A stretch of 64,000 nt of DNA from Rhodococcus sp. NBC_00297 (GTDB lineage: Bacteria; Actinomycetota; Actinomycetes; Mycobacteriales; Mycobacteriaceae), in contig NZ_CP108041.1 in the NCBI RefSeq assembly GCF_036173065.1, positions 4,343,001 to 4,407,000 of the forward strand, written 5' to 3'. The translations under genes were made by a program, and so were the position numbers. Under the pieces are notes generated by a model that saw nothing but the letters and a program-made list of their open reading frames with translations, did not search any database and was not told where the DNA came from. Shown here piece after piece: positions 7,157 to 51,496 of this stretch (positions are counted from its first letter, which is position 1; every line of letters begins with the position of its first letter).

Positions 7157-7161
7157 GTGGG

Positions 7162-7377
7162 TCAGTCCTTCGGATCGAGCGCGGAGGGCTTGTGCACCGC
7201 GTCCTTGCCGGACTTGTCACTCTCCACTCGGTACTGCGGGTCGTCCTTCGACGCCTTGACCGTGCGCCCACCGGCTTCGGTCTCGGAGGTGATCTTCTCG
7301 ACCACCTCGCCTTCGGTCGTGGTGCCGTGCGTCCTCCACTCGACCTTGTCGCCCTTGCTGAACTCGTCCTTCGACAC
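7162..7377 (-). CDS. HVA1/DUF2945 TUDOR-like small protein
   Basis: This 71-residue protein has the pattern of the hypervirulence-associated TUDOR-domain family (DUF2945): FSKGDKVEWRTHGTTTEGEVVEKIT followed by ASKDDPQYRVESDKSGKDAVHKPSAL. It is a small beta-barrel domain of unproven function that is common in actinobacteria and proteobacteria. The frame is open upstream to 7929, but GTG 7377 has a GGAAGGA ribosome binding site about six bases upstream and gives the normal family length. It is convergent with the GGDEF gene (5-base gap) and divergent from the serine-hydrolase operon. Confidence 0.8.
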   Translation of the reverse strand: MSKDEFSKGDKVEWRTHGTTTEGEVVEKITSETEAGGRTVKASKDDPQYRVESDKSGKDAVHKPSALDPKD

Positions 7378-7473
7378 GTGCCGGTTCCTTCCGTCTGCCG
7401 ATTCCTCTTGTCCGGTGTGGGGCTCATACCCGAGAAGTGCTGTCGGCACACACGACCGTCCGGTGGTCGATAG

Positions 7474-7513
7474 TGCAACTTGCATGGTGCAAAGTACACA
7501 GTCGGCGTAGGGT
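7474..7513 (+). promoter_or_regulatory. Promoter and likely PadR operator of the serine-hydrolase operon
   Basis: TGCAA-C-TTGCA (7474-7484) is an inverted repeat, followed by a second GTGCAA and AGTACAC. A -10-like TAGGGT lies at 7508-7513, so the repeats overlap or flank the -35 region. The operon downstream ends with a PadR-family repressor gene, and PadR repressors commonly bind such short AT-containing palindromes in their own operon promoter. The assignment to this PadR is an inference. Confidence 0.45.
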
Positions 7514-7582
7514 CTCGAACCGATCGGTCTCCAGCCCATGTTCGTGGGACGGGGACTCGGCACGTCGAACGGGGAAGACGAG

Positions 7583-33030: not shown

Positions 33031-34824
33031 TCACTTCAGTTCTGCGAGAACAGTTCCCTGGGTGATCGCGGAGCCGGGCTCCACGGCGAGTCCGGTGACG
33101 ACGCCGTCCTTGTGGGCGGTGACGGGGTTCTCCATCTTCATGGCCTCGAGGACGGCGATGAGGTCGCCGGCGACGACTTCCTGGCCCTCGGTGACGGCGA
33201 CCTTGACGACGGTGCCCTGCATGGGTGCGGTGACGGCGTCACCGGACGCGGCCGCGCTGCCGGCGCCGCCACGGGTGCGCGCCTTGGGCTTGCGACGGAT
33301 GACGTTGCCACCGGCAGCAGCGTTGCCGCCGAGCGAGAACTGGCCGGGCAGGGACACCTCGACACGGCGGCCGCCGACCTCGACGACGACGTTCTGTCGG
33401 GGTCCGTTCTCGTCGTCCTCGATGGGGGCGCCGGCGGTGAACGGTTCGACGGTGTTGTCCCACTCGGTCTCGATCCACCGGGTGTGAACGTCGAAGGACT
33501 GACCGTCGCCGATGAAGGCGGGGTCGGAGACGACGGCGCGGTGGAACGGGATGACGGTGGCGAGGCCCTCGACGCGGAACTCGGCGAGGGCGCGGCGGGA
33601 GCGGGCGAGGGCTTCCTCGCGGGTGGCGCCGGTGACGATGAGCTTGGCGAGCATGGAGTCGAACTGGCCGCCGATGACGGAGCCGGACTCGACACCGGAG
33701 TCGACGCGCACGCCGGGGCCCTCGGGGGCGATGAAGGTGGTGACCGGTCCGGGAGCGGGGAGGAAGCCGCGGCCGGCGTCCTCACCGTTGATGCGGAACT
33801 CGAAGGAGTGTCCGCGCGGTGCCGGGTCCTCGGTGATGGAGAGTTCGTCGCCGTTGGCGATGCGGAACTGCTGCAGCACCAGGTCGATGCCGGAGGTCTC
33901 CTCGGTGACGGGGTGTTCGACCTGCAGGCGGGTGTTGACCTCGAGGAAGGAGACGAGTCCGTCCTGGCCGACGAGGTATTCGACGGTGCCGGCGCCGTAG
34001 TAGCCGGCTTCCTTGCAGATGGCCTTGGCGGAGGCGTGGATCTCGGCGCGCTGGTCGTCGGTGAGGAACGGTGCGGGAGCTTCCTCGACGAGCTTCTGGA
34101 AGCGGCGCTGCAGGGAGCAGTCGCGGGTGCCGGCGACGACGACGTTGCCGTGCTGGTCGGCGATGACCTGCGCTTCGACGTGGCGGGGCTTGTCGAGGTA
34201 GCGCTCGACGAAGCACTCACCGCGGCCGAAGGCGGAGACCGCTTCGCGGGTGGCGGAGTCGAAGAGCTCCGGAATCTCCTCGCGGGTGCGGGCGACCTTC
34301 ATGCCGCGTCCGCCGCCGCCGAAGGCGGCCTTGATGGCGATGGGGAGGCCGTGCTCGTCGGCGAAGGCGAGGATCTCGTCGGCGTCCTTGACGGGCTCGG
34401 ACGTACCGGGCACGGAGGGGGCCTTGGCGCGGGTGGCGATGTGGCGGGCGGTGACCTTGTCGCCGAGGTCGCGGATGGACTGCGGGGACGGTCCGATCCA
34501 GATCAGGCCGGCGTCGAGGACGGCCTGGGCGAAGTCGGCGTTCTCGGAGAGGAAGCCGTAGCCGGGGTGGATCGCGTCGGCGCCGGACTTGGCGGCGGCG
34601 TCGATGATCTTGTCGATCGCGAGGTAGGACTCGGCGGAGGTCTGACCGCCGAGGGCGAAGGCTTCGTCGGCGAGGCGGACGAAGGGCGCGTCGGCGTCGG
34701 GTTCGGCGTAAACCGCGACGGAGGTGTAGCCGGCGTCGGCCGCTGCGCGGATCACACGTACCGCTATCTCACCGCGGTTCGCGACGAGAACCTTGCTGAT
34801 GCGGGCAGTGGCGTGGCTGGGCAC
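33031..34824 (-). CDS. accA3: Acyl-CoA carboxylase alpha subunit (biotin carboxylase + BCCP)
   Basis: This 597-residue protein joins a biotin carboxylase domain (about 1-455; ATP-grasp loop [46 protein letters not shown]) to a C-terminal biotin carrier domain with the biotinylated Lys563 in EAMKMENP. AccA3 is the shared alpha subunit that carboxylates biotin for acetyl- and propionyl-CoA carboxylases, feeding malonyl- and methylmalonyl-CoA into fatty and mycolic acid synthesis. Its partners accE5 and accD5 and the ligase birA are in the same region. In M. tuberculosis accA3 adjoins sufE; here a PapA-type acyltransferase gene lies between. A TAGGAT -10-like box (34911-34916, minus strand) overlaps the stop codon of that inserted gene. 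Confidence 0.95.
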
Positions 34825-34913: not shown

Positions 34914-36371
34914 CTAGTTTCGGAGTGTAGGGGTGAGCTCACTCCGGGCCCGCACGAGGTGTGTCCCGGTGGTCACGACGTCGCTGAGCACGGTCCGCAG
35001 TTCTGCCACGAACCGGTGGACGGCAGCGGTGGCGACCTCGCTGCTGGGGAACCGGGCCGAGATGTTGACGCCCTGCGGAGTGCGATGCACCCACAGGTAG
35101 ACGTCGTGGTCGTACTTCCTGCTCCGCAGTGCGCGCGCGTTGACGTCGGGCCACGTCCGCGCGTCGGGTGCGAAGCGCACGTCCATGAAGGAGACGACGA
35201 AACGCGGGGTCTCGTGCAGGTCGATCGCCTCGGCGACGAGATCGAGGGGGACGCGCGAGATCGGACGGGTGCGTGCGATCTCGGCTCCGGCGCGCACGAC
35301 GACGTCCCCGAACGACTCGCCGTCCGCGACGTCGAACGCGAGGGGAGCCACGCCGACGAACCAGCCGAGGGACGCGGCCCACGACGGGTCGTGACGGGTG
35401 TGCATCGGGGTGACCGTGCGGAAACGCCCCGCACCGGACACGGCAGCCGCCGCAGCGCCCATCGAGGCCATGAGGCCGGCGGAGAAGCCCGGACCGGCGC
35501 GGCGGCACGCCACGGTGAACGCGTCCGCCTCCTCGGGCGAGAGGACCCACGCGGACAGTCCGGCCTGCGGGAGCGGCACCTCCGGGACGGGTCCGATGTC
35601 GAGCGGGAAGGACGGGAATCGTCCCCCGTCCTCGGCGAGGAAGTTCGCCCACTCCACGGCGGCGTCGTGCGTCCGGTCGACCCCGCTGCAGAGGGTGCGC
35701 TCGAGTTCGCCGAAATCGAGGTAACTGCCGGTGGGGAAGAGCCCTGCCGGGGCGCCGGTGGTCTCCTGCTCGTAGAGGCGGGTGAGTTCGTGCGCGATGA
35801 GCACGATGGACAGCCCGTCGATGATCGAGTGATCGGCGGCGAAGAACACGGTGAAGTGGTCCGGTGCCGCGTCGCCGCCGGAGTGTCCGGTGGGTTCGAG
35901 AGTGACGAACGCGTACGACGGCCACACCAGCGGCGACGTGTACTCGTCGAACAGGTGCTGAAGATGCTGGTATACCTCGCCGGCCTGCGTGCACGTGTCC
36001 TGCTGGATGACCCAGATGTCGGTGGCACCGACCGGGGCCGTCACGCGTGAGAGCAGGCCCGTGTCGGGGTCGACGGTGGCGTTGGACCGCATGCCCTCGT
36101 GCCGGTCGATCCACGCCAGCACCGCGCGCCGGAACGCGGCGGTGTCGAGCGGGCCCGCGATGTCGAACGCGGTGCCGAGCCACGACTCGCGACCGGCAGA
36201 CGGCCTGGCCAGGGTGCGACGCAGGTGCGCCTCGTGCACGTAGGAGGTGGGCCGATCGTCGGGCAGCCACCCCGCGTCCTCCGGCGTCGATGCGTGCGGA
36301 CCGACGCTTGGGATCCATTCGGTGAGGGTGCCTGCCGGAATCGGGTAGTCGACCAGTTCGGTGAACTCCAC
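34914..36371 (-). CDS. PapA-type condensation-domain acyltransferase
   Basis: This 485-residue protein is a stand-alone condensation domain like the mycobacterial polyketide-associated PapA acyltransferases. The catalytic HxxxDG is complete at H181-SIID-G186 (ADHSIIDG), and a GWF segment (336-338) corresponds to the DFGW/solvent-channel motif. Such enzymes move long acyl groups from CoA or carrier protein to hydroxyls of sugars or diols. The N-terminus (MEFTELVDYPIPAGTLTEWIPSV) closely resembles the acyltransferase at 41637-43097 (MEFTELADHPLPRGVVTEWIPTV), so they are paralogues. It is wedged between sufE and accA3, which are neighbours in mycobacteria. The start is GTG 36371 with AAAGGA upstream. 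The acyl donor and acceptor are unknown. Confidence 0.85.
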   Translation of the reverse strand: MEFTELVDYPIPAGTLTEWIPSVGPHASTPEDAGWLPDDRPTSYVHEAHLRRTLARPSAGRESWLGTAFDIAGPLDTAAFRRAVLAWIDRHEGMRSNATVDPDTGLLSRVTAPVGATDIWVIQQDTCTQAGEVYQHLQHLFDEYTSPLVWPSYAFVTLEPTGHSGGDAAPDHFTVFFAADHSIIDGLSIVLIAHELTRLYEQETTGAPAGLFPTGSYLDFGELERTLCSGVDRTHDAAVEWANFLAEDGGRFPSFPLDIGPVPEVPLPQAGLSAWVLSPEEADAFTVACRRAGPGFSAGLMASMGAAAAAVSGAGRFRTVTPMHTRHDPSWAASLGWFVGVAPLAFDVADGESFGDVVVRAGAEIARTRPISRVPLDLVAEAIDLHETPRFVVSFMDVRFAPDARTWPDVNARALRSRKYDHDVYLWVHRTPQGVNISARFPSSEVATAAVHRFVAELRTVLSDVVTTGTHLVRARSELTPTLRN

Positions 36372-38830: not shown

Positions 38831-40213
38831 CTAGGGGACGGTGACCGGCGCGTCGGCCGCGGTCCGGGTGTCCACCGCGAACCGTAGGGCGGCCTCGCAC
38901 GGCTGGGCGACGAGTGCGAGATGGTCCGTGACGGCGGCCACGAAGACCTCGATCGTGGTGCGGGCGGTCGGGTTGTCGGGGAACCGGCTCCGCAGTGCGA
39001 GACCGTCCGCGGTGCGGGAGATCCAGAACTGCGCGTCGTCGGAGACGGTGACGTTGGAGATGTGGTGGGCGTCGATGCTGCGCAGCAGGTCGTGTCCGGG
39101 GGCCGACCGGTAGTCGACGTAGGACACCATGAAGACGTCCTTGCGCGGGCGCCGGAGTCCGCCCGCGGCCTCGACCACGCGGGCGATGGGCACCTCGCCC
39201 AGCGCGACCGCGCGTCGCACCGCCGGACCGGCCGAGCGGATCGTGGCCCTCAGGTCGCTCTCGGTGACCACCTCGAGCGGCGCGTTGGTGACGAACCAGC
39301 CGACGGACGACCGCCACGCCGCGGATCGACGGGTGTGCAGCGGGAACAGCAGGGGAACCGTGGCGCCACCACCGAGGTCGCGTACCGCGTGCGCCATGGC
39401 CGCGAGCACACCGGCGTAGAGGCTGGCCCCGTCGGCCCGGCACCCGGTCTCGGCCGCGTCGGCCTCCCGTGCGGTGAGCAGGGTGTCGACGCGGACCGCA
39501 CAGCGGTCCGTGCGCCCGTGCGGGACTCCGAGATCGAGAGGGAACTGCGGCGGAGCGCCGGCGCCCGCGTGCAGGAACTCGACCCACGTGCGGAGCCGGT
39601 CGTCCTCGAGGTCGATCGGCGTGCCCGCGGACTCGGCTGCGCAGTAGTCGACGAAGTCACCCGGATCCGGCGCGGTCTCCGGCTGGCCGAGATAGCCCCG
39701 ACGGACGTCGTCGATGACGACCGCCAGCGAATACGCGTCGACGTGCGCGTGATCGAACCCGCACACCACCGTGGAGACGTCCGGACGATCGATGGCGAGG
39801 AAGGTGTAGGCCGGTGCGGAGAAGGGAGCGCACGCGGCGTCGAGCGCACCGCGCACGACGCGGTGTGCCTCCGGGACGGACGGGACCGCGATGTCCGGTC
39901 GTCGTCGGAGGGTGAGCGCACCCTGCGGATGGTTCACGCGTGACGGACCGGAGTCGGACCGCACGAACCCGGTCCGGAGCGAACCGTGGCGTGCGACCAA
40001 CCGCTCGAGAGAACGCTCCAGGGCATCGGTGTCCAGCGGCCCCGGGACGTCGAACGATGCTGCGAGCCACGTGCTGCCGTCGTCGACGTCGGCGAGGTGC
40101 GCACTCTGGTTGAACGACGGCGGGACCGTCGACGGGACGGGTTCGGCGTCGGAACGCACGAGCCACTGCAGGATGACGCCGGGGCGCGGGGCCCAGGCGT
40201 CCACTCCGATCAC
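38831..40213 (-). CDS. PapA-type condensation-domain acyltransferase (HxxxDA variant)
   Basis: This 460-residue acyltransferase of the condensation superfamily has the catalytic His and Asp in H155-AHVD-A160, with the usual final Gly replaced by Ala. A GWF motif (VGWFVTNAP) follows in the second lobe. The frame runs on upstream, but GTG 40213 gives a GTGA overlap with the preceding acyltransferase gene and an N-terminus (VDAWAPRPGVILQW) that resembles its neighbour's NWKPAPGQLLEW. It is the last of three coupled acyltransferases downstream of two glycosyltransferases. It likely esterifies a sugar hydroxyl; substrates are unknown. Confidence 0.82.
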   Translation of the reverse strand: MIGVDAWAPRPGVILQWLVRSDAEPVPSTVPPSFNQSAHLADVDDGSTWLAASFDVPGPLDTDALERSLERLVARHGSLRTGFVRSDSGPSRVNHPQGALTLRRRPDIAVPSVPEAHRVVRGALDAACAPFSAPAYTFLAIDRPDVSTVVCGFDHAHVDAYSLAVVIDDVRRGYLGQPETAPDPGDFVDYCAAESAGTPIDLEDDRLRTWVEFLHAGAGAPPQFPLDLGVPHGRTDRCAVRVDTLLTAREADAAETGCRADGASLYAGVLAAMAHAVRDLGGGATVPLLFPLHTRRSAAWRSSVGWFVTNAPLEVVTESDLRATIRSAGPAVRRAVALGEVPIARVVEAAGGLRRPRKDVFMVSYVDYRSAPGHDLLRSIDAHHISNVTVSDDAQFWISRTADGLALRSRFPDNPTARTTIEVFVAAVTDHLALVAQPCEAALRFAVDTRTAADAPVTVP

Positions 40214-41640
40214 GTGCACGCGCCACCACCGACGACGCGGTTCCCGTCCCGCGCGACCGTCTGCAGGACCTCCCGCAGGTGCTGGTGGTATCGCGCCACC
40301 TGCCGCTGAGCCTCGGGCGTCGCGGGAGTCTGCGACCCGAGATAGAAGTGGCGATCGTCCCGGTTGAACCACATGGACGCGTTCGCGGTGCGGCCCTCGC
40401 CGGTGAACAGGATCGCGTCGTCGTCGGCCTCGGAGCCGTGGCCGGGGAACCAGCGGAAATCAATGTAGGACAACAGGTGCGGGCTCGATGCCAGTCCGGC
40501 GCCGCCGACACCGGACTCGAAGAGCAGCTGCAGCACCTTCCCGATCGGCGCTGCCGCGGTGGCCTTCGTGCGGGCGTAGGCCTCGCTCGCTCGACCGACG
40601 AGGGTGCGGAAGTCGCCGACGCCCGCCACGGGGAACGTCACGGGCGCGAAGTTGCAGAACCAGCCCTGGGACAGGGCGAAGTCCCCGAGGTGGCGGGTAC
40701 CGAGCACGGTGATGCCGGCGTAGTCGTCGCGGCCCGCGAGCTCGTGATCGGTGATCGCGACCGCGGCGAACAGGCCCGTGACGAACTTCCCACCCGCCTC
40801 CCGGCACGCGGCGTCGAAGGCCGCGGTGTCGTCCGCGCCCAGCAGGTCCATCTCGATCGGTTCGACGGGAGCGGTCTCACCCGGTGCGAGTCCGAGGTCG
40901 AGCGGGAAGGACGGCATCGCGCCGCCGTGGGCTCGCACGACGTCGATCCACTCGGCCAGCTCGGGGGAGTCGGCGTCGACGGCCTCGGCCCTCTCGTTCT
41001 CGATCGCGACGTGCTCGAGGAAGCTTCCGGTCCACGCCGAGATGTCGGTGGGTGCACGGTTCGACTGCGCCGCGCGATAGAGATCGATCAGCTCCGCCAG
41101 GACCAGGACCTGAGAGGCGCCGTCGGAGAACGCGTGGTCCGCACCGTAATAGAGCGTGAATCCCCCCGGTCGCGCCACCGCCCCGAACGCCACGGCGGGC
41201 CAACTCAGGGGTGTGGCGTCCCGCGAGAGCCGATCGCGCACGTAGTCGAGGAACTGGTCGGGCGCCGAGCACTCGCCCGCGGAGACGGCCCGCAGGCGCG
41301 CGGCCGCCGGGGGAACGCGGCGCCGCACGACCGCGCCGCCGTCCGTCTCGAACCACGTCTGCAGTCCCTCGTGGCGCAGGAGGAACTGCTCGAAGGCGAG
41401 GGTCAACGCGGCGACGTCGAGATCTCCGGCGACCTCGGTCGCGGAGCCGAGGTACGCGGTGTGCGTGCCTCCCCGGTCCGCCACCGCGCGCACACCGCGA
41501 ACATGGTTCTCCTGCAGAAACGACGGCGGGGTGGGATCGACCGGTGCGGACTCGACGAGCGGCCGTGCGTCGTCGACCGGATGCCACTCGAGCAGTTGGC
41601 CGGGTGCGGGTTTCCAGTTGCGCATCGCCGTGATGATCAT
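40210..41640 (-). CDS. PapA-type condensation-domain acyltransferase
   Basis: This 476-residue acyltransferase has a complete HxxxDG at H169-AFSD-G174 and a GWF segment (SQGWFCNFAP). Its N-terminus, NWKPAPGQLLEWHP followed by PTPPSFLQENHVRG, is strikingly like M. tuberculosis PapA1/PapA2, which acylate sulfated trehalose. This is the best evidence in the cluster for a trehalose- or sugar-acylating role. ATG 41640 overlaps the stop of the upstream acyltransferase gene (ATGA), and its stop overlaps the next start (GTGA). Confidence 0.85.
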   Translation of the reverse strand: MIITAMRNWKPAPGQLLEWHPVDDARPLVESAPVDPTPPSFLQENHVRGVRAVADRGGTHTAYLGSATEVAGDLDVAALTLAFEQFLLRHEGLQTWFETDGGAVVRRRVPPAAARLRAVSAGECSAPDQFLDYVRDRLSRDATPLSWPAVAFGAVARPGGFTLYYGADHAFSDGASQVLVLAELIDLYRAAQSNRAPTDISAWTGSFLEHVAIENERAEAVDADSPELAEWIDVVRAHGGAMPSFPLDLGLAPGETAPVEPIEMDLLGADDTAAFDAACREAGGKFVTGLFAAVAITDHELAGRDDYAGITVLGTRHLGDFALSQGWFCNFAPVTFPVAGVGDFRTLVGRASEAYARTKATAAAPIGKVLQLLFESGVGGAGLASSPHLLSYIDFRWFPGHGSEADDDAILFTGEGRTANASMWFNRDDRHFYLGSQTPATPEAQRQVARYHQHLREVLQTVARDGNRVVGGGACT

Positions 41641-43097
41641 GCGTGCACCGTCCTGTCCGCCCCGCTCTCGACGACGGCGCCGGCGGACTCGCGCAACACC
41701 TCCTGGAATCGGGCGAGGTAGGCGTGCACGTTGCGGACCGCCTCCTCGTGGCCGGGGAACCGGGCCGCGATGCTGAGGCCGAGCGGCGTGCGGAGAATCC
41801 AGAAGTAGACCTCGTCGCGGGAGGCGGTGGCACTGCGGAGTGTGCGCGTGTTCCACAGCGGCCACGACTCGGCATCGGGGGTGTGCCGCAGATCGAGATA
41901 GGACACCACGAACTGCGGCACCGAGTCCACGTTCAGCAGCCGCGCGACACGGGAGTACGGCTGGCGTGCATAGCCCTTGACGGCGTCCAGGCCGGCGGCG
42001 GCGCGGCGCACGGCGTCGTCCACGTCCGAGCCGGGGTCGACGTGGACGTCGACCGGCACCACTCCCACGTACCAGCCGACCGATTCGGCGTACTGGGGCT
42101 CGAAGCGCGTGTGCATGGGCATGGTCACTCGCAGTCGGCGTTCACCAGCGAGGTCGCGGGAGGTCAGTGCCAGCGCACCGACCACGGCCGCGGTCATGGA
42201 CGCACCCCGCGCGCGGGTGTGTGCGGCGAGCGCGTCGGTGTCCGCCGCACTCAACAGGTAGCGGGAGAGACTGCTCTGCCGCTCGGGACCGTGCTCGTCG
42301 TCGGCGCCGACCGGGAGGGGGAACGGGGGGAAGCTGCCGTCGGAGAGGAAGGACGACCAGGTGCGGACCACCTCGTGGTCGGGGGTCAGGCAGTCACCGG
42401 TCTCCCGGTCGACGACGCTGAAGTCGAGATGACTGCCGATCGCCGCCAGCCGTGGATCGCGCGCGTGGATCTCGAACTCGTACAGTCGGCGGAGTTCGCT
42501 GACGGCCAACAGCATCGAGTACGCGTCCATGACGGAGTGATCGGCTCCGAAGACGAGCAGGAACCGGTCCGTCTCGTCGTCCTCCTCGGTCGACGAACTC
42601 GGGGCGATGTCCTCGACCGTGGCGACCACGCAGTGCGGCCACCGGAACGGCGACAGGGTGCGGGCGAAGAAGTCGGAGACGTCGGCGTGCACGTCGGATC
42701 CAGTGCGCCGACGCCCGAGTACACGCGGAACCACGTCCACCGCATCCTCCGGGACGGTGGAGCGGGCGAGACGGGCGCCGCCGTCGGCGTCGACGCCGTC
42801 CGTCGTGACCGTCGAGCGGAAGGTCTCGTGGCGAGCGGTCCACGCGCGCAGAGCACGACGCAGCGCCTCGGCGTCGTACCGGTCGTGGATCTCGAACACC
42901 GCCCCGATCCAGGCGGCGCCGATCTCGTCCGAGGATCCCGTGGCAGCCTTGGCGAGGCTGTGACGGCAATGTTCCTCGTGCGTGTAGGCCAGTGGTCGGT
43001 CGTCCCGATACCAGCGGTCGGTCGCGGTGACGGTGGGGATCCACTCGGTCACCACGCCCCGGGGGAGCGGGTGATCGGCGAGCTCGGTGAATTCCAT
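41637..43097 (-). CDS. PapA-type condensation-domain acyltransferase (HxxxDA variant)
   Basis: This 486-residue paralogue of the acyltransferase at 34914-36371 shares the N-terminus MEFTEL...GVVTEWIP. The active-site motif is H187-SVMD-A192, with Ala instead of Gly at the last position, and a VGWYVGVVP segment follows. ATG 43097 is chosen by comparison with the paralogue; a GTG at 43109 would add four residues. The stop overlaps the next gene's ATG. It is separated from the upstream GT2 gene by 58 bases and is probably in the same transcript. Confidence 0.83.
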   Translation of the reverse strand: MEFTELADHPLPRGVVTEWIPTVTATDRWYRDDRPLAYTHEEHCRHSLAKAATGSSDEIGAAWIGAVFEIHDRYDAEALRRALRAWTARHETFRSTVTTDGVDADGGARLARSTVPEDAVDVVPRVLGRRRTGSDVHADVSDFFARTLSPFRWPHCVVATVEDIAPSSSTEEDDETDRFLLVFGADHSVMDAYSMLLAVSELRRLYEFEIHARDPRLAAIGSHLDFSVVDRETGDCLTPDHEVVRTWSSFLSDGSFPPFPLPVGADDEHGPERQSSLSRYLLSAADTDALAAHTRARGASMTAAVVGALALTSRDLAGERRLRVTMPMHTRFEPQYAESVGWYVGVVPVDVHVDPGSDVDDAVRRAAAGLDAVKGYARQPYSRVARLLNVDSVPQFVVSYLDLRHTPDAESWPLWNTRTLRSATASRDEVYFWILRTPLGLSIAARFPGHEEAVRNVHAYLARFQEVLRESAGAVVESGADRTVHA

Positions 43098-43155
43098 CTT
43101 CGGTCTCACGTCCGTTCGGGTCGAGATCGCAGGGTCGGGAAGTGGAGCGGTGCGC

Positions 43156-44031
43156 TCAAGGCATTCCGCGATCGGTGCGGGGGCGCAGGAGATGTCGCGC
43201 GGAGAAGGATCCGCTGTCGCTGTCGTAGGCGCGGATCATCACGAGTCGGCAGGCGTGGAGCACGGACACCCCCGGCACGTACAGCACGAGCGCTGCCGCC
43301 GCGAGCGCGTGGCGTCGATGCAGTCGCAGGGTTCGGGGGAGGCACGCCATGTAGCGGACGAATGACCGCATTCCCGATTCCATTCGGCGCGGCGACACTC
43401 CCACGGTGAGGGAGGGCAGAAAGGCGTTGCGCCCGCCCGACTCCTGGACGCAGAGCCCCATGTCGACGTCCTCGAAGACGTCGCGGCGCAGCGAGACGTC
43501 CTCGCGGATCAGCTTCCACGTCTCGCGGCGCAGGATCATGTTCGAGCCGTACAGGACCGGAACGTCGCGGACCTCTGGGGTGGACGGCGACCGCCGGGCG
43601 AGCGGTGACCACCGCGCCTTGATGCGGGCGGCCGCGTCGCCGTAGGGCAGCTCGTACGCCTCACCGCGTCCGCACGCGGCGGCCCAGTGCTGATCGACGT
43701 CGGCGGCGAAGAAGTCGAGAATCGTTGCCGCCCAGTCATCGGGCACGCGGGTGTCGGCATCGATCCGGGCGACGAGATCCCCGGACGCCGCATCCATACC
43801 GGCGTTCCGGGCGAAGACGAGACCCTGCTGCTTCTCGGTCACCACGCGGATCTCGGGGTGGTCCGTGGCATGTCGTCGCACGACGTCACGGGTGCCGTCC
43901 GCGGAGTTGTTGTCCACGACGATGATCTCGGTGATGCAGTCGAGCTGGGTGCACAGCAGGTCCAGGCACGCGCCGATGCACTCCTCCTCGTCGAATGCCG
44001 GGACGACGACGGACAGGGACAGTCGGTTCAT
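43156..44031 (-). CDS. Family 2 glycosyltransferase
   Basis: This 291-residue GT-A fold enzyme has SVVVPAFDEEECIGACLDLL at the start, VVDNNSADGT in the nucleotide loop and the DxD metal motif in ARIDADTRVP (about residues 90-100). VLYGSNMILRRE and FEDVDMGLCVQESG are GT2 acceptor-side motifs. A hydrophobic stretch near residues 245-265 (ALAAAALVLYVPGVSVLHA) may attach it to the membrane. It should transfer a sugar from a nucleotide donor on the cytoplasmic face. ATG 44031 overlaps the stop of the GT1 gene upstream, so the two glycosyltransferases are coupled. Confidence 0.88.
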   Translation of the reverse strand: MNRLSLSVVVPAFDEEECIGACLDLLCTQLDCITEIIVVDNNSADGTRDVVRRHATDHPEIRVVTEKQQGLVFARNAGMDAASGDLVARIDADTRVPDDWAATILDFFAADVDQHWAAACGRGEAYELPYGDAAARIKARWSPLARRSPSTPEVRDVPVLYGSNMILRRETWKLIREDVSLRRDVFEDVDMGLCVQESGGRNAFLPSLTVGVSPRRMESGMRSFVRYMACLPRTLRLHRRHALAAAALVLYVPGVSVLHACRLVMIRAYDSDSGSFSARHLLRPRTDRGMP

Positions 44032-45365
44032 CGGGAGGTCTCCGTTCGCGAGGCGGTCGGGTGCAGCGGGGCCGTGCGGCGCTGCGCTGCCGCCTCGACG
44101 AGGTCGGCGCACCGCCGGACCGCATCGGTGGGCGAGACGAGGGAATCCGCGAGACGCTCTGCAGCAGAACGTGTCCGTGGGTGGAGCACCCGGGCCAGAG
44201 CGGCATCGAGCGAGGCGGAGGACGCCGATCGTGCGGCGACGCTCGCGCCGACTCGCGAGGCGACGACGCGTCGTCCCCACAGGGGTTGATCGGCACCGAC
44301 GTGACACACGAGGGTGGGTCGACCGGCGCGCAGACCGGCCGCGGTGGACCCGGCGCCGCCGTGGTGGACGACGGCCTCGCACTGAGGGAGCACCGCGGTG
44401 TGGTCGACGGCCGACACCGAGAGGACATCGTGCCCGAACTCGCTGGAACCGGGGGCGTTCTCGCGCAGCAGCCGGTCGTCCCAGCCGCCGACGAGCAGAA
44501 CGCGTCTCCCGGCACGCCGAACGGCAGCGACGAGTTCGTCGAGAAGAGCCGCGCCGCCGGGGACCGTCATGCTGCCGAACCCGATGTACACCGGTGGTGT
44601 GCCCGCGCGGAGCCAGGAATCGAGACCGTCGGTGACCGGGGCAGCTCGCTGCACCGCGGCGCGAGTGCGGGCGTCGGGATGCAGGAAACCGGTGAGAGGT
44701 CGCGCCGGGCCCCATTCCTCCGTGAGCCCGGGGAACAGCGCCGCGTCGTACGCCTGGATCTCGGTGACGCCGGAACGCGCCAGCGCCCCAGCGACACTGG
44801 ATGTCATGGGCGGAAGTCCGAGTTCTGCTCGGAGGGTGGTGTGCGCACCACGGGAGGCGCGCCACAGTGTGGTGTCGAGCGCCCACCACGCCGCGCGGTG
44901 CACGAACCCCGGGAGGGCCGACGGTACCGGGACGACGGAGGCGACGCCGTTGCTGCGAACCGGGCAGAAGTGCAGGGGTGCGTAGGGGATCGAGTGCACC
45001 TCAGCCACGTCGTACGCGCTCTCCTGACCGACGGACGACCCCACGAGGACATCGCTGCCGGCGGCCAGGTCGGTCAGCGCGGCTCGCGCGGCGCGACCTC
45101 CCGCGACGGTGACGGCCGTGATGGCTGCCAGCCGGCGGCGCGGGTTGCGCGAGGCCATGTCTCGGGTCACGAGGGGCGAGGTGAGCAGCTCCGCGGTGTC
45201 CACACCGCACGGGCGAGCATCGAGTCCGGCGGACGCGGCGAAGGCGACGAGGTTCGGCGGAACGGCGAGCACCACACGGTGTCCACGTCGTTCCAGCTCG
45301 GTGGCCAGGACGACGCCGGGCTGCACGTCGCCTCTACTTCCCTGAAATGCCAACGTGACCTGCAT
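44028..45365 (-). CDS. Family 1 glycosyltransferase (MGT type)
   Basis: This 445-residue GT-B enzyme belongs to the UDP/dTDP-sugar MGT group that includes the glycosyltransferases of mycobacterial glycopeptidolipids and macrolide glycosylation. GSRGDVQPGVVLATELERRGH opens the acceptor domain. PPVYIGFGSMTV and the donor-binding signature VVHHGGAGSTAAGLRAGRPTLVCHVGADQPLWGRRV are in the C-terminal half. It heads the minus-strand arm of the cluster, divergent from a paralogous GT1, with GAGGGGG upstream of its ATG. The likely acceptor is a lipid or sugar hydroxyl; donor unknown. Confidence 0.88.
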   Translation of the reverse strand: MQVTLAFQGSRGDVQPGVVLATELERRGHRVVLAVPPNLVAFAASAGLDARPCGVDTAELLTSPLVTRDMASRNPRRRLAAITAVTVAGGRAARAALTDLAAGSDVLVGSSVGQESAYDVAEVHSIPYAPLHFCPVRSNGVASVVPVPSALPGFVHRAAWWALDTTLWRASRGAHTTLRAELGLPPMTSSVAGALARSGVTEIQAYDAALFPGLTEEWGPARPLTGFLHPDARTRAAVQRAAPVTDGLDSWLRAGTPPVYIGFGSMTVPGGAALLDELVAAVRRAGRRVLLVGGWDDRLLRENAPGSSEFGHDVLSVSAVDHTAVLPQCEAVVHHGGAGSTAAGLRAGRPTLVCHVGADQPLWGRRVVASRVGASVAARSASSASLDAALARVLHPRTRSAAERLADSLVSPTDAVRRCADLVEAAAQRRTAPLHPTASRTETSR

Positions 45366-45808
45366 GTCTCACCCCCTCGAGCGTTGCTTCGCGACCCCCG
45401 CGCGCCGAGCGTCCGCAACTGATGACCTCCGCGAACTGTTCGTGGAACGACCATTGCAGACATGGTGGGACTCCGCCAATCGTGACGTCCTACGCCACAC
45501 CGACACGCCAGGGTGACGAGTGTCTCGCTGTCCGAGTTGCGATCGGGCCCGTCGTGACATCCCACGCCGCTGCGCCGACCCGACCTCCTTGTTCGGCGTA
45601 TTCTGCTGTCAGCCTTGACAAGTCGACTGCGGCACTGCTTGTGACCAGCGTGCGTTCCCGACCTCGAGGTCTGTCCGTGGTCCAGTTCTCGGATCGGCAC
45701 CACGACATGCCGTCCCGTGCGTCGAATGGTACGAACAAGTGACACAAGCGGACGAGACGCCATTTCCGGCGCACTCCACATCAGGTATGTCCGAGGGGGA
45801 ATCGAGTC
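45366..45808. promoter_or_regulatory. 443-bp divergent control region between two GT1 genes
   Basis: No convincing gene lies here; short open frames show poor codon usage. The region is less GC-rich than its flanks. It holds a perfect 12-base palindrome GACCTCGAGGTC (45660-45671), a TTGACA box (45615-45620) within CTTGACAAG, and similar GAGGGGG ribosome binding sites before both GT1 starts. It is long enough for two promoters and regulator sites controlling both arms of the cluster. No regulator gene is in the cluster, so control must come from elsewhere. Confidence 0.5.
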
Positions 45809-47104
45809 GTGCGTATCGTCATGGCCGTCAGCGGAACGCGAGGCGACGTACAACCTGCCGTCGTCCTGGGTTCGGATCTGGCGGGCCGGGGCCACCACGT
45901 GGTCATGGCAGTTCCGCCCAACCTCGTGCACCTGGCCCGCGGGGTCGGACTCGAGACGGTGCCGTTCGGGTACGACACCCGCGAGCACATGAACTCGGAC
46001 CTGGTCCGTCACGGCCTGTCCCGCGGGTCGGTCGCCGACCGTGCGCGGGCGCTCGCCGCACTGTGGAACTTCGGGTGGGACCATATGGTGACGGAACTGC
46101 GCGACGTCGTCGACACCACGGCGCCGGACGTGCTGCTCACCGGCATCACCACCGAACAGATCGCGCTGCCCCTCGCCGAGGCGCGCGGGATCGGTCTCGT
46201 CGCGCTGCATCACGCGCCGGTGCGCGCCAACCCGCGGTACTCACCTGTGCCCGGCATCGACGGTGCGCCGGCTGCGGTCGTCGGACTGGCCTGGACCGTG
46301 CTGGACCACGTCCTGTGGACGGCGACCCGGCGGCGCGAGAACACGCTGCGCCGCTCCCTGGGCATCCCCACGGTGTCGTCACCGCTTCCCGGTCGCATGG
46401 CCCGTCGCCGGACCGTCGAGATCCAGGCCTACGACCGGGTGTTCTGCCCCGAACTCGCCGTCGACTGGGACGGCACGCGTCCCCTCACCGGTTTCCTCGA
46501 GGTGTGCCCGGAGCTGCGGGCACGGATGGATCCGCAGCCGTCCGACCCGTCCCTGGACGAGTGGATCGACGACGGCCCCCCGCCCGTCTACGTCGGCTTC
46601 GGATCCATGCCGGTGACGAACCCGGCGGCCGTCCTGGCCGCCGTCGCGGATGCCGCGGTGCGCGTGGGCGAACGGGTTCTGCTGTGCGCCGGCTGGAACG
46701 ACGTCGACTCCGCAGACGCGCTCGGTGATCACGTCCGTGTGACCGGCGCCGTCGACCACGCCGCGGTCTTCCCCCGATGCCGCGCCGTCGTGCACCACGG
46801 CGGCGCGGGGACCACCGCGGCGGGACTGCGGGCCGGGCGGCCGACGGTGGTGTGCTCGGTGTCGTCGGATCAGCCCTTCTGGGGTCGGCGGGTCGTCGCC
46901 CTGTCGTGCGGCGCCGCGATGTCCGCCTCCGACATCACGGCGCAGTCGTTGGAGAAGGCGTTGCGCCTCGCTCTGACGCCCGAGGCGGCCGCGGGCGCTG
47001 CTGCCGTGGCCGCCGCCATGACGAGTCCCGCGGAGGCGGTTCGCCGCGCGTCCGACCTCGTGGAGTCGGCCCGCCCCGCACCGACGGACGCGGTGGTCGC
47101 ATGA
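45809..47104 (+). CDS. Family 1 glycosyltransferase (MGT type), second copy
   Basis: This 431-residue paralogue of the divergent GT1 has VSGTRGDVQPAVVLGSDLAGRGH at the start, PPPVYVGFGSMPV in the hinge and VVHHGGAGTTAAGLRAGRPTVVCSVSSDQPFWGRR as donor signature. It starts at GTG 45809 with GAGGGGGA eight bases upstream. It opens the plus-strand arm and overlaps the next gene by ATGA. Two GT1 enzymes plus one GT2 predict up to three sugar additions on the cluster product. Confidence 0.88.
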   Translation: MRIVMAVSGTRGDVQPAVVLGSDLAGRGHHVVMAVPPNLVHLARGVGLETVPFGYDTREHMNSDLVRHGLSRGSVADRARALAALWNFGWDHMVTELRDVVDTTAPDVLLTGITTEQIALPLAEARGIGLVALHHAPVRANPRYSPVPGIDGAPAAVVGLAWTVLDHVLWTATRRRENTLRRSLGIPTVSSPLPGRMARRRTVEIQAYDRVFCPELAVDWDGTRPLTGFLEVCPELRARMDPQPSDPSLDEWIDDGPPPVYVGFGSMPVTNPAAVLAAVADAAVRVGERVLLCAGWNDVDSADALGDHVRVTGAVDHAAVFPRCRAVVHHGGAGTTAAGLRAGRPTVVCSVSSDQPFWGRRVVALSCGAAMSASDITAQSLEKALRLALTPEAAAGAAAVAAAMTSPAEAVRRASDLVESARPAPTDAVVA

Positions 47105-48447
47105 CGGCGCGCCTTCAGGATCAGGACTTCACCTACTGGTTCCTCTCCGAGGCGTTCGGGTGGGACGTGGTCCTGCAACTCGTGTGGCGCTTCGACGACG
47201 CGGTGCCGGACGCCGACGTGACGGCGATGGCGGTGGGACTCGCGCGCGGAGCACTGCATCGACGCATCGTGCGACCGTCGATTCCCGTCGCCCGCCCGAG
47301 CTGGGTCCGGTCCGACCGGGCTCCCGCCGTTCGGCTCGACGACGAGTCTGTGACACCGGACGAGGTCCTCGACTGGGCGACGCGCGATCTCGAGACCGTC
47401 GACCTCGACGTCGAGGAGGGTCGCTGCTGGGCGCTGCGGTCCACCCGGACGACCACCGGTGGATCGGCGCTGTCTCTCACCTGCCTGCACCTCGTCGCGG
47501 ACGGCCGAGCGATGACGGCGGCCGCTGTGGCCGCCGTCGCCGACACGGCCGGGGTGCGCGACGACGTCGGCGCCGCGCCGACCGGGCCGGCCGCACTCGT
47601 CGGGGACGTCGGCGACGCAGCACGTCAGGTGGTCGGAGCCGCGGCCGGCGTGGCACGGACCGCCGCCGCCTTGGTGTCCGATCTCCGCTCGACCGGCTCC
47701 GGCGTCGCACGTCCGGCCCCCGTCACCCCCCGCGCTCCCGCACACACCCGTGCGCCGCTGGCTCGTCCGTCCTGGGCGACGGTCACGGTGCCGCTGGCGG
47801 AGTGGGACGCCGTCGCGCAGCGTCACGGCGGGACACGGAACTCGTTGTTCGTCGCGGTACTCGCCGGTGCGCTCGTCGCCACCGGCTACGCAGACGACGG
47901 GCTGCCCGTGAAGGTCGGCATCCCGATGAGTCTGCGCCGGGGGGAGGACGATCAGCGCAGCAATGCCACCGGGGGCGTGTCGATCTCACTCGCCGAGCGC
48001 GTGATTCCGGGCTCCGATCTGGGCGGTGTCCGCGCGCTGTGCCGGGACGCGTTCGCGGCGCTGTCCGCCGGACGCCGGCCGGCGATGATTCATCTGCAAC
48101 CGCTGCTCCAGGTACTCCCGCTGTCCGTCGTGACGTCCGTGGTGACGGGCGGCGGGTCCGGTATGCCCGACGTGGTCGCGTCGAATCTCGGGTCCTTCGA
48201 CGGTCTCCGCCGGGTCGGCGGCCGTACCGCCACGGACGTCGCCTTCCGGGGAACAGCGCACCACGTCGACCCCGCCGGCACGCAACGCTTCGGCGAGGGC
48301 GTGCAGTCCTGGTACCTGGAGACGGACGGTGCGGCGACCTTCGCCGTGGCCGGGTTCGACGAGACACGCGTGGGTTCCGCGCAGGCGCTGACGGCAGCCC
48401 TGTCCGCGGAGCTCACCGGATGGGATGTGCCGCATGAGTTCTGGTGA
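47101..48447 (+). CDS. HxxxDG acyltransferase (WS/DGAT-like condensation fold)
   Basis: This 448-residue protein has the condensation/WS-DGAT layout: HxxxDG at H130-LVAD-G135 (CLHLVADGR), an Ala/Val-rich linker (about 170-215), and a second half with GGTRNSLFVAVLAGALVATGY and GIPMSLRRGEDDQRSNATGG, which recall the NDxxLAxxxGALR and PVSLR motifs of wax ester synthases. It is shorter and of a different subfamily from the four PapA-like proteins. ATG 47101 overlaps the GT1 stop. It is expected to acylate a hydroxyl group using acyl-CoA; substrate unknown. Confidence 0.75.
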   Translation: MTARLQDQDFTYWFLSEAFGWDVVLQLVWRFDDAVPDADVTAMAVGLARGALHRRIVRPSIPVARPSWVRSDRAPAVRLDDESVTPDEVLDWATRDLETVDLDVEEGRCWALRSTRTTTGGSALSLTCLHLVADGRAMTAAAVAAVADTAGVRDDVGAAPTGPAALVGDVGDAARQVVGAAAGVARTAAALVSDLRSTGSGVARPAPVTPRAPAHTRAPLARPSWATVTVPLAEWDAVAQRHGGTRNSLFVAVLAGALVATGYADDGLPVKVGIPMSLRRGEDDQRSNATGGVSISLAERVIPGSDLGGVRALCRDAFAALSAGRRPAMIHLQPLLQVLPLSVVTSVVTGGGSGMPDVVASNLGSFDGLRRVGGRTATDVAFRGTAHHVDPAGTQRFGEGVQSWYLETDGAATFAVAGFDETRVGSAQALTAALSAELTGWDVPHEFW

Positions 48448-49831
48448 CGTGACCACTGCTCCGGTCCGCCCGGCAGACCGCGTGGCGGGTGCCGACGAGT
48501 CGTACGCGTTGGCGGAGCGACTCTTCGGATGGACGGCGCCGATCCAGTACCTGTGGATCTTCCCGGCCGACCCGGGTGCGGACGCCGTCGCGACGCTCGC
48601 CGACCGGCTCGCGTCGGGATCGTTCGACCGCCGGGTGGTCCCCACCTCCGTGCCGTTCGGCCACGACCGATGGGTGCGGGCCGAGCGCCCCGCCACGGTG
48701 TACACCGAACCGGGCACCATCGCGGATGACGCGGTGGGGGACTGGGTCGATGCGCGGCTCCGTGCGGCCGATCTCGACCCGTCTGCCGGACGCGGTTTCA
48801 CGCTCGAGTGCGCGCACACCGATACCGGACGAGTCGTCGTGGCACTGCTGGTCTCGCACATGATCGCCGACGGTCAGGCCGTGTACGCGGCGCTCGATGC
48901 GGCTCGCCGGGGGCCGACGCGCTCGGCACTGCCCACCGGGCGTGACGTCGCCGGGTGGGCCGGCGTGCGGGGCGATCTCCGTGACGCGGGGGCGCAGATT
49001 CCGGCGGTGGCGCGGGCTCTCGCGGTGATCGGGAAGGCGGCGGCGACGGCCGGCGCGACGGCGCTGCGGACGGCGATCACACGATCCGACGAGACTGCCC
49101 CGACCGCCGCGCCGGTCGAGGCTCGCGCGGACGAACCCACTCCGACCGAGTCCGACACCACCCTCGCCGTGGTGGATCTCGATCGCCGTGAGTGGATCGC
49201 CCGCGCGGCCGAGCACGGTGGTACGCCGAACAGCCTCTTCACAGCCGTCATGGGCGGGGTTCTGCGTGCGTCCGGCCATCCGACGGGTCCCGAGGGCACG
49301 CGCATCTGCATCGCGGTGAGCAACCGCGCCGACGGCGACGACAGAGCGAATGCGTCCGGGGGCGTGTGGATCCGGGTGCCCGGGCCGATCGGACCCGAGG
49401 TGGGGCTCGGCGAGATCCGCGCGCTGAGCAAGGCGGCGTTCGCGAAGTACGCGACCACGGACGACGCGGTCACCGACCACCTGCAGGCGGTGGCCAGGTT
49501 GCTTCCGGACCGGGTGCTCGGGCGGATGATGACGTCCATCGCCGGGCCGGACACCACCGTGTCGAACCTGGGCGCCGCGCCGCAGAGCGCTCTCGAACTC
49601 GGTGATCAGGTCGCGGAGTCGTTCGGGATCCGCGCGATCATGCAGGGCCGCGACGCGGCCGCCCGGCGTCGACAGGGACCGGCGATCGCCGCGTGGGCGG
49701 TGGAGTACGGCGACAAGGTGACGGTCACCGTGTTCGGCATCCACCCCGAGTACGCGGGAGACACCGGCCGGCTCCGCGAGACGGTGTCCGCGGAGCTCGA
49801 CCGGTGGTCACTCGAGCACTCGTTCTGGTGA
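48434..49831 (+). CDS. HxxxDG acyltransferase (WS/DGAT-like), tandem paralogue
   Basis: This 465-residue paralogue of the preceding gene has H142-MIAD-G147 (SHMIADGQ), GGTPNSLFTAVMGGVLRASGH in the second half and the same kind of C-terminus (LEHSFW versus VPHEFW). An Ala/Thr-rich low-complexity linker spans about residues 190-240. ATG 48434 lies inside the end of the previous gene (14-base overlap); GTG 48425 is also possible. Tandem duplication with retained motifs suggests that both are active on related positions of one product. It ends four bases before the convergent accD5 stop. Confidence 0.75.
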   Translation: MSSGDVTTAPVRPADRVAGADESYALAERLFGWTAPIQYLWIFPADPGADAVATLADRLASGSFDRRVVPTSVPFGHDRWVRAERPATVYTEPGTIADDAVGDWVDARLRAADLDPSAGRGFTLECAHTDTGRVVVALLVSHMIADGQAVYAALDAARRGPTRSALPTGRDVAGWAGVRGDLRDAGAQIPAVARALAVIGKAAATAGATALRTAITRSDETAPTAAPVEARADEPTPTESDTTLAVVDLDRREWIARAAEHGGTPNSLFTAVMGGVLRASGHPTGPEGTRICIAVSNRADGDDRANASGGVWIRVPGPIGPEVGLGEIRALSKAAFAKYATTDDAVTDHLQAVARLLPDRVLGRMMTSIAGPDTTVSNLGAAPQSALELGDQVAESFGIRAIMQGRDAAARRRQGPAIAAWAVEYGDKVTVTVFGIHPEYAGDTGRLRETVSAELDRWSLEHSFW

Positions 49832-49834
49832 GGT

Positions 49835-51496
49835 CTAGAGCGGGATGTTGCCGTGCTTCTTCGGAGGCAGGGTGACCATCTTGCGTTCGAGCAGGCGCAG
49901 TGCGGTGACGATCTGTCCGCGGGTGTGGCTCGGGGGGATCACCGCGTCGACGTAGCCGCGTTCGGCGGCGACGTACGGGTTGACGAGGGTGTCCTCGTAC
50001 TCGTTCTGCAGCTCGAGGCGCAGTGCGTCGACGTCGTCACCGTTCTTGGCGGCCTCGAGGAGACGTTTGCGGTAGACGAAGCCGACGGCGCCGGAGGCGC
50101 CCATGACGGCGATCTGCGCGGTGGGCCACGCGAGGTTGAGATCGGCGCCCATGTGCTTGGACCCCATCACGTCGTATGCGCCGCCGTACGCCTTGCGGGT
50201 GATGACGGTGATCTTGCCGACGGTGGCCTCGCCGTAGGCGTAGAGCAGTTTCGCGCCGCGGCGGATGATGCCGTTGAACTCCTGATCGGTGCCGGGCAGG
50301 AAGCCGGGGACGTCGACGAGGGTGATGATCGGGATGTTGAAGCAGTCGCAGGTGCGCACGAACCGGGCGGCCTTCTCGGACGCGTCGATGTCGAGGGTGC
50401 CGGCGAACGCGGTGGGCTGGTTGGCGACGATGCCGACGCTGCGCCCGTCGACGCGGCCGAACCCGACGATGATGTTGCGGGCGCGCCCTTCCTGCACCTC
50501 GAGGAACTCGTCGTCGTCGAGGATGCGGCGGATGACCTCGTGCATGTCGTACGGGGTGTTCGGCGAATCCGGGATCAGGGTGTCGAGTTCCAGATCCTCG
50601 GCGGTGAGGGAGTCGGCGATGGCCCCGTCGATGGGGTCCGAGGGGGCAAGGCGGGGCGCGGTGGCCTGGTTGTTGGAGGGGAGGTAGCCCAGGAGTTCGC
50701 GGACGTAGTCGAGGGCGTCCTGCTCGCCGGAGGCGACGTAGTGGGCGACGCCGGACTTCTCCATGTGGGTGTGGGCGCCGCCGAGGTCCTCCATGGTGAC
50801 GTTCTCGCCGGTGACGGTCTTGATGACGTCGGGTCCGGTGACGAACATCTGGGAGGTCTTGTCGACCATGACGACGAAGTCGGTCAGCGCCGGGGAGTAG
50901 ACGTGCCCGCCCGCGGCCGGTCCCATGATCAGCGAGATCTGGGGGACGACGCCGGACATGCGGACGTTGCGGTGGAAGATCTCGCCGTAGAGGCCGAGGG
51001 AGACGACGCCTTCCTGGATACGGGCGCCGGCGCCCTCGTTGATGCCGACGAGGGGGCGTCCGGTCTTGAGGGCGAGGTCCATGACCTTGACGATCTTCTC
51101 GCCGTAGATCTCGCCGAGGCTGCCGCCGAAGACGGTGGCGTCCTGGGAGAACACGCACACGTCGCGGCCGTCGACGGTGCCGTAGCCGGTGACGACGCCG
51201 TCGCCGAAGGGGCGGTTGTCGGCGAGGCCGAAGTTGACGGAGCGGTGGCGGGCGAGGGCGTCGAGTTCGACGAACGAGCCCTCGTCGAGGAGGGCGGTGA
51301 TGCGTTCGCGGGCGGTGAGCTTGCCCTTGGCGTGCACCTTCTCCACGGCCGCCTCGCCCATGGGCTTCTCGGCCTGGGCCTGGCGGGCGGCGAGCTCGGC
51401 CAGCTTTCCGGCAGTGGTGTGGATGTCGGGTGCGGCAGCCCCCGTCTCTTCTCGAGCCACTGATTCCTGCGCGGACGCATCCTGAACACTCGTCAT
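49835..51496 (-). CDS. accD5: Propionyl-CoA carboxylase beta subunit AccD5
   Basis: This 553-residue carboxyltransferase transfers CO2 from carboxybiotin to propionyl- or acetyl-CoA. [24 protein letters not shown] and the [22 protein letters not shown] oxyanion-hole loop belong to the N-terminal half. [56 protein letters not shown] is the C-terminal acyl-CoA/biotin face. The C-terminal KKHGNIPL is the family end. A TACAGT -10 element eight bases before the ATG predicts a leaderless transcript. It is divergent from birA. Unlike in mycobacteria, it is cut off from accE5 by the acyltransferase/glycosyltransferase cluster. Confidence 0.95.

Follow-up and report, generated by a model that had tools for sequence, protein, structure and literature searches.

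A block of eight genes between accE5 and accD5 of Rhodococcus sp. NBC_00297, whose genome is placed in the genus Rhodococcoides (Rhodococcus), was analysed within a window of 64,000 nucleotides, i.e., positions 4343001–4407000 of chromosome C1 (NZ_CP108041.1) of the 4.8-Mb genome. This block is probably an island of genes for the biosynthesis of a trehalose oligosaccharide lipid that is succinoylated and multiply acylated, most likely a pentasaccharide as in R. (Nocardia) corynebacteroides, and the related genomes suggest a surface lipid built on trehalose, in which the sugar count would be set by the number of glycosyltransferase (GT) genes in the block. An initial annotation of this DNA had described eight genes in two divergent arms, which the list of open reading frames (ORFs) confirms: the minus-strand arm runs GT1_L, GT2, PapA_c3, PapA_c2, PapA_c1 toward accE5, and the plus-strand arm runs GT1_R, WS1, WS2 toward accD5. 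The same annotation had read the block as making a sugar lipid with several acyl chains, a reading that the sequence comparisons support, and had allowed for up to three sugars, in place of which three GTs on a trehalose acceptor would predict five. The block is not a chance grouping, because its order and site recur in relatives and the catalytic residues that were checked are conserved in every row that passed the filter.

The Pfam family Condensation was found in all four PapA proteins, i.e., PapA_c1 to PapA_c3 and a fourth, PapA_0, which is encoded between sufE and accA3, outside the stretch that the initial annotation had covered, and is a probable partner of the island enzymes. Glycos_transf_2 was found in GT2, and EryCIII-like_C together with Glyco_transf_28 in both GT1 proteins. 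Conserved residues were counted over kept rows, each labelled by its best hit, after tblastn pieces covering <75% of the query or containing stops had been removed. The HxxxD motif is invariant in PapA_c1 (H155/D159, 34/34 rows), PapA_c2 (H169/D173/G174, 39/39), PapA_c3 (H187/D191, 37/37) and PapA_0 (24/24), with A in place of G after the motif D in c1 and c3 of the window. The DxD motif of GT2 (D91xD93) is invariant in 27/27 rows, and HHGGAG and DQP.WG are invariant in 28/28 rows each of GT1_L and GT1_R; we take DQP.WG to be the hexose-donor site, as in sterol glucosyltransferases, a group represented among the PDB matches of GT1_R. A GT1 tree built from the 56 rows remaining after the filter contains two deep clades, each spanning several genera, for GT1_L (25 rows, support of 100 in the Shimodaira–Hasegawa-like approximate likelihood-ratio test, SH-aLRT) and GT1_R (21 rows, 100), and a third clade (10 rows, 99) for the only GT1 that the R. 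fascians type, described below, possesses.

WS1 and WS2 are paralogues of each other (hhalign probability 100), and neither matches a Pfam family at E ≤ 0.001. WS_DGAT_cat reaches E = 0.044 for WS1 of the window only, with nothing for WS2, and WS1 scores 34.5 bits against the NCBIfam WS/DGAT family TIGR02946, for which the cut-off is 310, so that the curated-family cut-off is not reached; WS2 has no NCBIfam match. Against PDB profiles, the WS1 alignment (A1) gave penicillin-binding-protein matches near E = 1e-3, which are probably due to chance, and WSD at 0.098, and the WS2 alignment (A2) gave a single match at 0.23. HxxxDG is invariant in both proteins (WS1 H130/D134/G135, 36/36 rows; WS2 H142/D146/G147, 18/18 rows).

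The top PDB match of all four PapA proteins is M. tuberculosis PapA2 (6aef), a trehalose-2-sulfate acyltransferase, with the strongest E-value for PapA_c2 (Table 1). This match bears on an alternative in which the acceptor is a diol, a carotenoid, a menaquinol or a peptide lipid, and the GT1 enzymes glycosylate a lipid aglycone rather than trehalose. The solved structures closest to GT1_R are antibiotic and sterol glycosyltransferases (GtfB; sterol glucosyltransferases at 4e-23), PapA5-type enzymes act on diols, and the genome contains large nonribosomal peptide synthetase (NRPS) clusters, all of which would suit such an acceptor. However, all four PapA proteins lie nearest to PapA2, and no aglycone-making gene was found among the genes assigned in the laid-out loci, for which the queries were the proteins of the window itself; a different acceptor is thus regarded as unlikely.

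With trehalose taken as the acceptor, the proposed pathway would start with the acylation of trehalose from acyl-CoA by PapA_0 and PapA_c1–c3, at positions and with chains that are predicted, as is the acceptor. GT1_L, GT1_R and GT2 would then add one hexose each, giving 2 + 3 = 5 sugars, with the sugar, order and linkage likewise putative, and WS1 and WS2, which share the overlapping arm with GT1_R, may transfer acyl groups to these further sugars or to the 3-hydroxyl group on the first acyl chains. Succinate would be added perhaps by a SucT-like membrane acyltransferase encoded elsewhere; as a lead, a SucT-family protein of the window genome (L103) scores 771 bits, below the cut-off of 1275, and was the only one to match SucT among four PF01757 regions (13-kb stretches, nine selected ORFs). 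The product may finally be exported by a DrrAB-type ABC transporter. The drrAB genes are absent from the window island, though they are present in the R. trifolii island and in 19 of the 20 other-genus regions (Williamsia included). A drrB homologue (65%) lies elsewhere in the window genome (2165871), and it is not considered island-specific because G001, a genome without the island, holds one at 64%.

Within the genus, 37/37 genomes have some PapA_c2 match at E ≤ 1e-20, and three types can be told apart by PapA_c2 identity: seven genomes of the window type (59–100%), i.e., the window genome, the same-species G061, G002, G005, G015, G016 and G034; 25 of the R. fascians type (51–55%), a label that rests on a match to strain I2R; and five without the island (G001, G020, G026, G029, G031), in which the single match is PapA_0. 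Twenty loci were laid out, i.e., five of the window type in addition to the window itself, ten of the R. fascians type and five of the empty type; the remaining 15 R. fascians-type genomes were typed from PapA and GT1 matches only (G018 and G008 being fragmented), and G061 was assigned by PapA_c2 alone (99%). The window type reads accD5 / WS2-WS1-GT1_R / GT1_L-GT2-c3-c2-c1 / accE5-maf-sseA-sufE-PapA_0-accA3 in 5/5 loci and the window. The order and site of the block recur in six named relatives, with both flanks visible in five of them (L021, L022, L024–L026); in R. trifolii, the accD5 side and the accE5 side (L038) both match, and L038 is the only window-type locus with drrAB, which lies between GT2 and c3. 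The R. fascians type reads accD5-accE5-maf / WS, GT1, WS, c3-c2-c1 / sseA-sufE-PapA_0-accA3 in 10/10 loci, all with one GT1 and no GT2 match (accE5 had no match in 2/10), and the empty type reads accD5-accE5-maf-sseA-sufE-PapA_0-accA3 in 5/5, PapA_0 being kept even in these five congeners.

In a quick tree of sseA and accA3 (40/40 chosen loci), the empty genomes are nested among those of the R. fascians type (branches 98 and 92), whereas genomes of the window type group by themselves (SH-aLRT 94); losses of the island are therefore the simpler account of the empty genomes. A paralogue-rooted PapA tree of 15 chosen loci groups c1, c2 and c3 of the window type with other genera and not with the R. 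fascians type (SH-aLRT 96, 89 and 96). In an unrooted concatenated tree, a single branch (bootstrap 100, SH-aLRT 98.7) sets the two Rhodococcoides types together apart from the other loci; it holds 32 of 35 chosen loci, since L049, L027 and L072 lack the full trio, and the choice did not include L029, L079 and L080. The idea that the window clade had its island replaced horizontally was considered and dropped, as the concatenated tree joins both types and the R. fascians branch is long; vertical descent appears to be enough for the window-clade island.

The two arrangements can be set beside published products, as described in the available parts of the sources cited. Trisaccharide succinic tetraesters were reported from R. 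fascians NBRC 12155 and from a Rhodococcus sp., whereas the product reported from Nocardia corynebacteroides SM1 is a pentasaccharide succinic octaester (PMC4365757), N. corynebacteroides being an old name of R. corynebacterioides (PMC9233653). Strain I2R, whose closest relatives in 16S sequence are R. yunnanensis, R. cerastii and R. fascians, gave di- and trisaccharide succinic esters by mass spectrometry; three papA3 genes and one papA1 gene on its contig 9 were named as candidates, many glycosyltransferases on several contigs were mentioned, and adjacency to treXYZ was reported in the context of a succinyltransferase (PMC8396431). From the printed positions in that paper, the I2R PapA starts are 1,478, 1,434 and 2,911 bases apart. 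The distance from the third to the fourth PapA start is 2,877–2,960 bases in the R. fascians type (10/10) and 3,776–3,850 in the window type (6/6); the negative spacings obtained for L061–L063, L070 and L071 are artefacts, in which the PapA_0 query matched c3 best, and were not used. The 2,911 bases of I2R lie in the one-GT1 range, and the trisaccharide maker I2R therefore has the spacing of the one-GT1 arrangement. Two GT1 genes and GT2 are found in 6/6 window-type loci as well as in R. corynebacterioides NBRC 14404 and BP-281. The number of GTs in the genus thus fits the published number of sugars, which would be trehalose + 1 = 3 in one type and trehalose + 3 = 5 in the other. Six ester bonds can be counted in the published trisaccharide, which bears succinate, two acyloxyacyl groups and one hexanoate; six acyltransferases (four PapA, two WS) are likewise encoded in the R. 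fascians-type segment.

Several observations weigh against this assignment. The rule that the GT count equals the sugars beyond trehalose agrees with two published chemotypes of the genus, which is a very small sample, and disagrees with Tsukamurella, which makes tri/tetrasaccharide lipids (PMC4365757, in part) with an island of one distant GT1 (34–35%), no GT2 match and PapA5-family enzymes (one genome typed); the rule therefore fails there or needs other genes. The pairing of product and island is indirect, as SM1 is known by its product, I2R is matched to an island type by its gene positions, and NBRC 12155 was not matched to a genome. The spacing separates the types of this genus only, since Williamsia and g91 loci (L064, L080) also show about 2,800–2,850 bases. 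In R. corynebacterioides G005, two tandem GT2 genes (C3:242310-244123), 40% and 37% identical to the island GT2, could add sugars as well. The pentasaccharide is an octaester, versus six acyltransferases in the island plus PapA_0. GT2 at E ≤ 1e-40 was found in 5/298 genomes of the order, with eight candidates scored per genome; a close GT2 occurs only in the window genome (100%) and G005 (70%), and three more are at 39–42%. The island is patchily spread, 301 of 401 family genomes being without a close PapA_c2, and trehalose as the sugar acceptor is predicted from PapA homology.

An acylated trehalose lipid could also be made with one of the GTs unused for it, so that the product would have three or four sugars instead of five, a possibility that is less probable and still to be taken seriously. 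The GTs appear separable, as all of the four g91 regions except L079, which is without the core, retain GT1_L and GT2 while only one GT1 is visible, and GT2 homologues (35–42%) occur elsewhere in several genomes. However, GT1_L and GT1_R form separately conserved multi-genus clades with full motifs, and the R. corynebacteroides pentasaccharide requires three additions to trehalose, both of which favour the use of all three GTs.

Outside the genus, PapA_c2 homologues at E ≤ 1e-75 bring the total to 100/401 family genomes in 12/31 genera, 32 of the 100 being in this genus. Twenty other-genus regions were chosen by hand, mostly the best, from 68 non-genus genomes with PapA_c2 matches. The genes c1, c2, c3, drrA, drrB, GT2 and GT1_L occur together in 18 of them, the exceptions being L072, without a c1 match, and L079, without the core; a second GT1 labelled GT1_R was found in 14/20, WS1 in 18/20 and WS2 in 14/20, some stretches ending before WS2. 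The initial annotation had named a gene order common to all relatives, mycobacteria included, as what would refute it; the core is common to several genera, but not to all (100/401 family genomes with a close PapA_c2; 2/2 genomes read of g24, probably Mycobacterium, without such an island at this site). A recent foreign insertion was rejected, since the G+C content of the island (0.67–0.74) overlaps that of the flanks (0.68–0.73), and the presence of the same core across genera also disfavours it. L028 (NZ_JNYV01000009.1), titled Kitasatospora arboriphila, shows 94–96% DNA identity to Williamsia muralis across the locus and is probably mislabelled.

These regions also bear on the carboxylase genes around the block, from which the initial annotation had drawn malonyl/methylmalonyl-CoA through AccA3-AccD5-AccE5, and which an alternative account would tie to the island as the source of branched acyl chains. 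The island does lie inside the accA3...accD5 segment in this genus and in Williamsia, and beside sseA...accA3 in g91; 7/20 regions (Williamsia g83, g91) adjoin sseA-sufE-PapA_0-accA3. However, the island is without a polyketide synthase (PKS), neither sseA nor accA3 was seen in the stretch read around 12 of the 19 islands in other genera, and 5/37 congeners keep the carboxylase genes with the island missing. The candidate products bear succinyl and hexanoyl groups along with medium-chain groups that are mostly 3-hydroxylated; the chains are mainly straight, and branched hydroxy acids were reported as minor components (PMC8396431 and PMC4365757, both in part). The supply of malonyl/methylmalonyl-CoA is thus not borne out, and a functional tie is very improbable; given the occurrence of the island at other places, its lack of a PKS and its absence from five congeners in which the carboxylase genes are retained, the link looks positional only, and accE5 is, as far as shown, a flank with no part in the pathway.

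The Williamsia muralis island, which includes drrAB, lies between maf and sseA, the site used in the R. fascians type. Because both use it, the maf-sseA site looks ancestral, and accE5-maf would have switched sides in the window clade. In L096 (positions 1-8400, g89), a second, different island (drrAB, WS1, GT1, c3, c2) was seen next to maf, L077 being the other island of the same genome. The accD5 regions of 19 genomes (20 stretches) were also annotated. In Tsukamurella (4/4; L082–L085), a GT1 (34–35%) and a WS2-like match (31–34%) lie between maf and sseA; in L082, to which family typing was applied, three PapA5-family proteins and one VC0807-family protein were identified in the gap as well. 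Identity of g91 with Tsukamurella was ruled out, as T. tyrosinosolvens DNA showed identities of 97% and 88% with g27, compared with 74–75% for g91. Both g94 genomes have distant c2/c1 homologues (32–40%) in the gap, and further inserts are DUF222 proteins (L087, L090), an MFS transporter (L090) and a sigma-factor-like ORF (L099). No PapA match was found at the gap in the two genomes read of g24, which is probably Mycobacterium, and several other genera have no island there (L091–L095, L097, L098, L100). The maf-sseA gap takes inserts repeatedly, not always. Two accD5-like genes per genome, 88–92% identical to the window accD5, were seen in G354 (L088, L089) and G469; in G354, PapA genes adjoin one copy, and the other is adjoined only by accA3.

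A broader and more tentative reading is that the maf-sseA gap in the accA3...accD5 segment may serve the whole family as a docking site at which lipid-sugar islands can be interchanged, and that the docked GT set would fix the sugar number of the envelope glycolipid. This number would be five with two GT1 and GT2 (window), four with one GT1 and GT2 (g91) and three in the R. fascians type, from which GT2 and DrrAB would have been lost; the five genomes without the island, having lost it, would make no such lipid. If so, one genus would offer a natural series for the shortening of a surface oligosaccharide by gene loss.

The genes of the block and its flanks are listed in Table 1. The names maf, sseA, sufE, accE5 and accD5 are presumed ones, given after the sequence and the mycobacterial gene order; of the carboxylase genes and these neighbours, accA3 alone was family-searched. 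Within the arms, 4-base overlaps join four of six junctions, so that the description of nearly all genes as so joined was slightly generous: WS1 and WS2 overlap by 14 bases, and a 58-base gap separates GT2 from PapA_c3. The accE5 start lies 36 bases downstream of the PapA_c1 stop, accD5 on the opposite strand ends 3 bases past the WS2 stop, and maf, sseA, sufE, PapA_0 and then accA3 follow past accE5. The nearest named match for WS1 is from Rhodococcus sp. UNC23MFCrub1.1 (98% identity). A scan of the divergent intergenic region found no promoters or terminators. As the initial annotation had stated, no PKS, MmpL or regulator was found in the eight-gene block by ORFs and Pfam/NCBIfam searches; MmpL-family matches are present elsewhere in the window genome. 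At C1:3029000-3135300, that genome also contains large NRPS regions, whose open frames reach 8,879 and 5,903 codons.

Table 1. Genes of the block and its flanks, in positions of the window
Feature	Description	Position	Strand	Basis
PapA_c1	trehalose-acyltransferase-like, 460 aa, GTG start	38831..40213	-	Pfam Condensation 1e-12; PDB PapA2 1.4e-30
PapA_c2	476 aa, marker of the island in comparisons	40210..41640	-	Pfam Condensation 5e-13; PDB PapA2 3.5e-43
PapA_c3	486 aa	41637..43097	-	Pfam Condensation 6e-15; PDB PapA2 9e-18
GT2	GT2-family glycosyltransferase, 291 aa	43156..44031	-	Pfam Glycos_transf_2 1e-26
GT1_L	GT-B glycosyltransferase, 445 aa	44028..45365	-	Pfam EryCIII-like_C + Glyco_transf_28
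GT1_R	GT-B glycosyltransferase, 431 aa	45809..47104	+	Pfam EryCIII-like_C + Glyco_transf_28; PDB GtfB 6e-34
WS1	remote WS/DGAT/PapA-like putative acyltransferase, 448 aa	47101..48447	+	NCBIfam TIGR02946 1.1e-8, below cut-off
WS2	paralogue of WS1, 465 aa	48434..49831	+	hhalign to WS1; no family match
PapA_0	fourth PapA, between sufE and accA3	34914..36371	-	Pfam Condensation 6e-19; PDB PapA2 7e-32
accE5	flank, 85 aa	38537..38794	-	translation; coordinates by offset from L021; name presumed
accD5	flank	49835..51496	-	ORF; 99% identical to L021/L022 counterparts; name presumed
accA3	flank	33031..34824	-	Pfam biotin carboxylase + biotinyl domain

If the assignment is correct, it would provide candidate genes for every sugar and acyl step, explain the R. 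fascians trisaccharide versus the R. corynebacteroides pentasaccharide, and predict products for Williamsia and several other genera. The mycobacterial lipooligosaccharide (LOS), sulfolipid and polyacyltrehalose (PAT) loci resemble the island in using PapA acyltransferases on trehalose, with LOS also adding sugars. However, the LOS, SL-1, PAT and glycopeptidolipid (GPL) loci carry PKS or NRPS, FadD/FAAL and MmpL, none of which is in this block, and the relatives of the island carry a DrrAB-type exporter, unlike the MmpL of the mycobacterial loci. Given this make-up, the view of the initial annotation that the block does not copy the known loci for sulfolipid, PAT or GPL is upheld.

Oligosaccharide trehalose lipids are biosurfactants, and antiviral activity was reported for a fraction rich in them (PMC8396431, in part). 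In the open-access literature, with subscription papers mostly outside the search, no work was found that links a glycosyltransferase island to these lipids or tests the sugar-adding genes. The Rhodococcus glycolipids are known as chemicals, and the available part of the I2R paper (PMC8396431) lists candidate papA genes, none of them tested there. According to the same part, the nearest I2R homologues of TlsA, a putative acyl-CoA transferase for succinoyl trehalose lipids from Rhodococcus sp. SD-74, are the four clustered papA genes, which are about 30% similar to it. The succinoyl trehalose and glucotriose lipids that were described from Rhodococcus (isolate Q, BS-15, R. fascians, I2R) are acylated trehalose with no or one extra sugar and come from the same group of bacteria. 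The pentasaccharide of N. corynebacteroides SM1 has three extra sugars if it is trehalose-based, as the available part of PMC4365757 implies, and the same island is found in that species.

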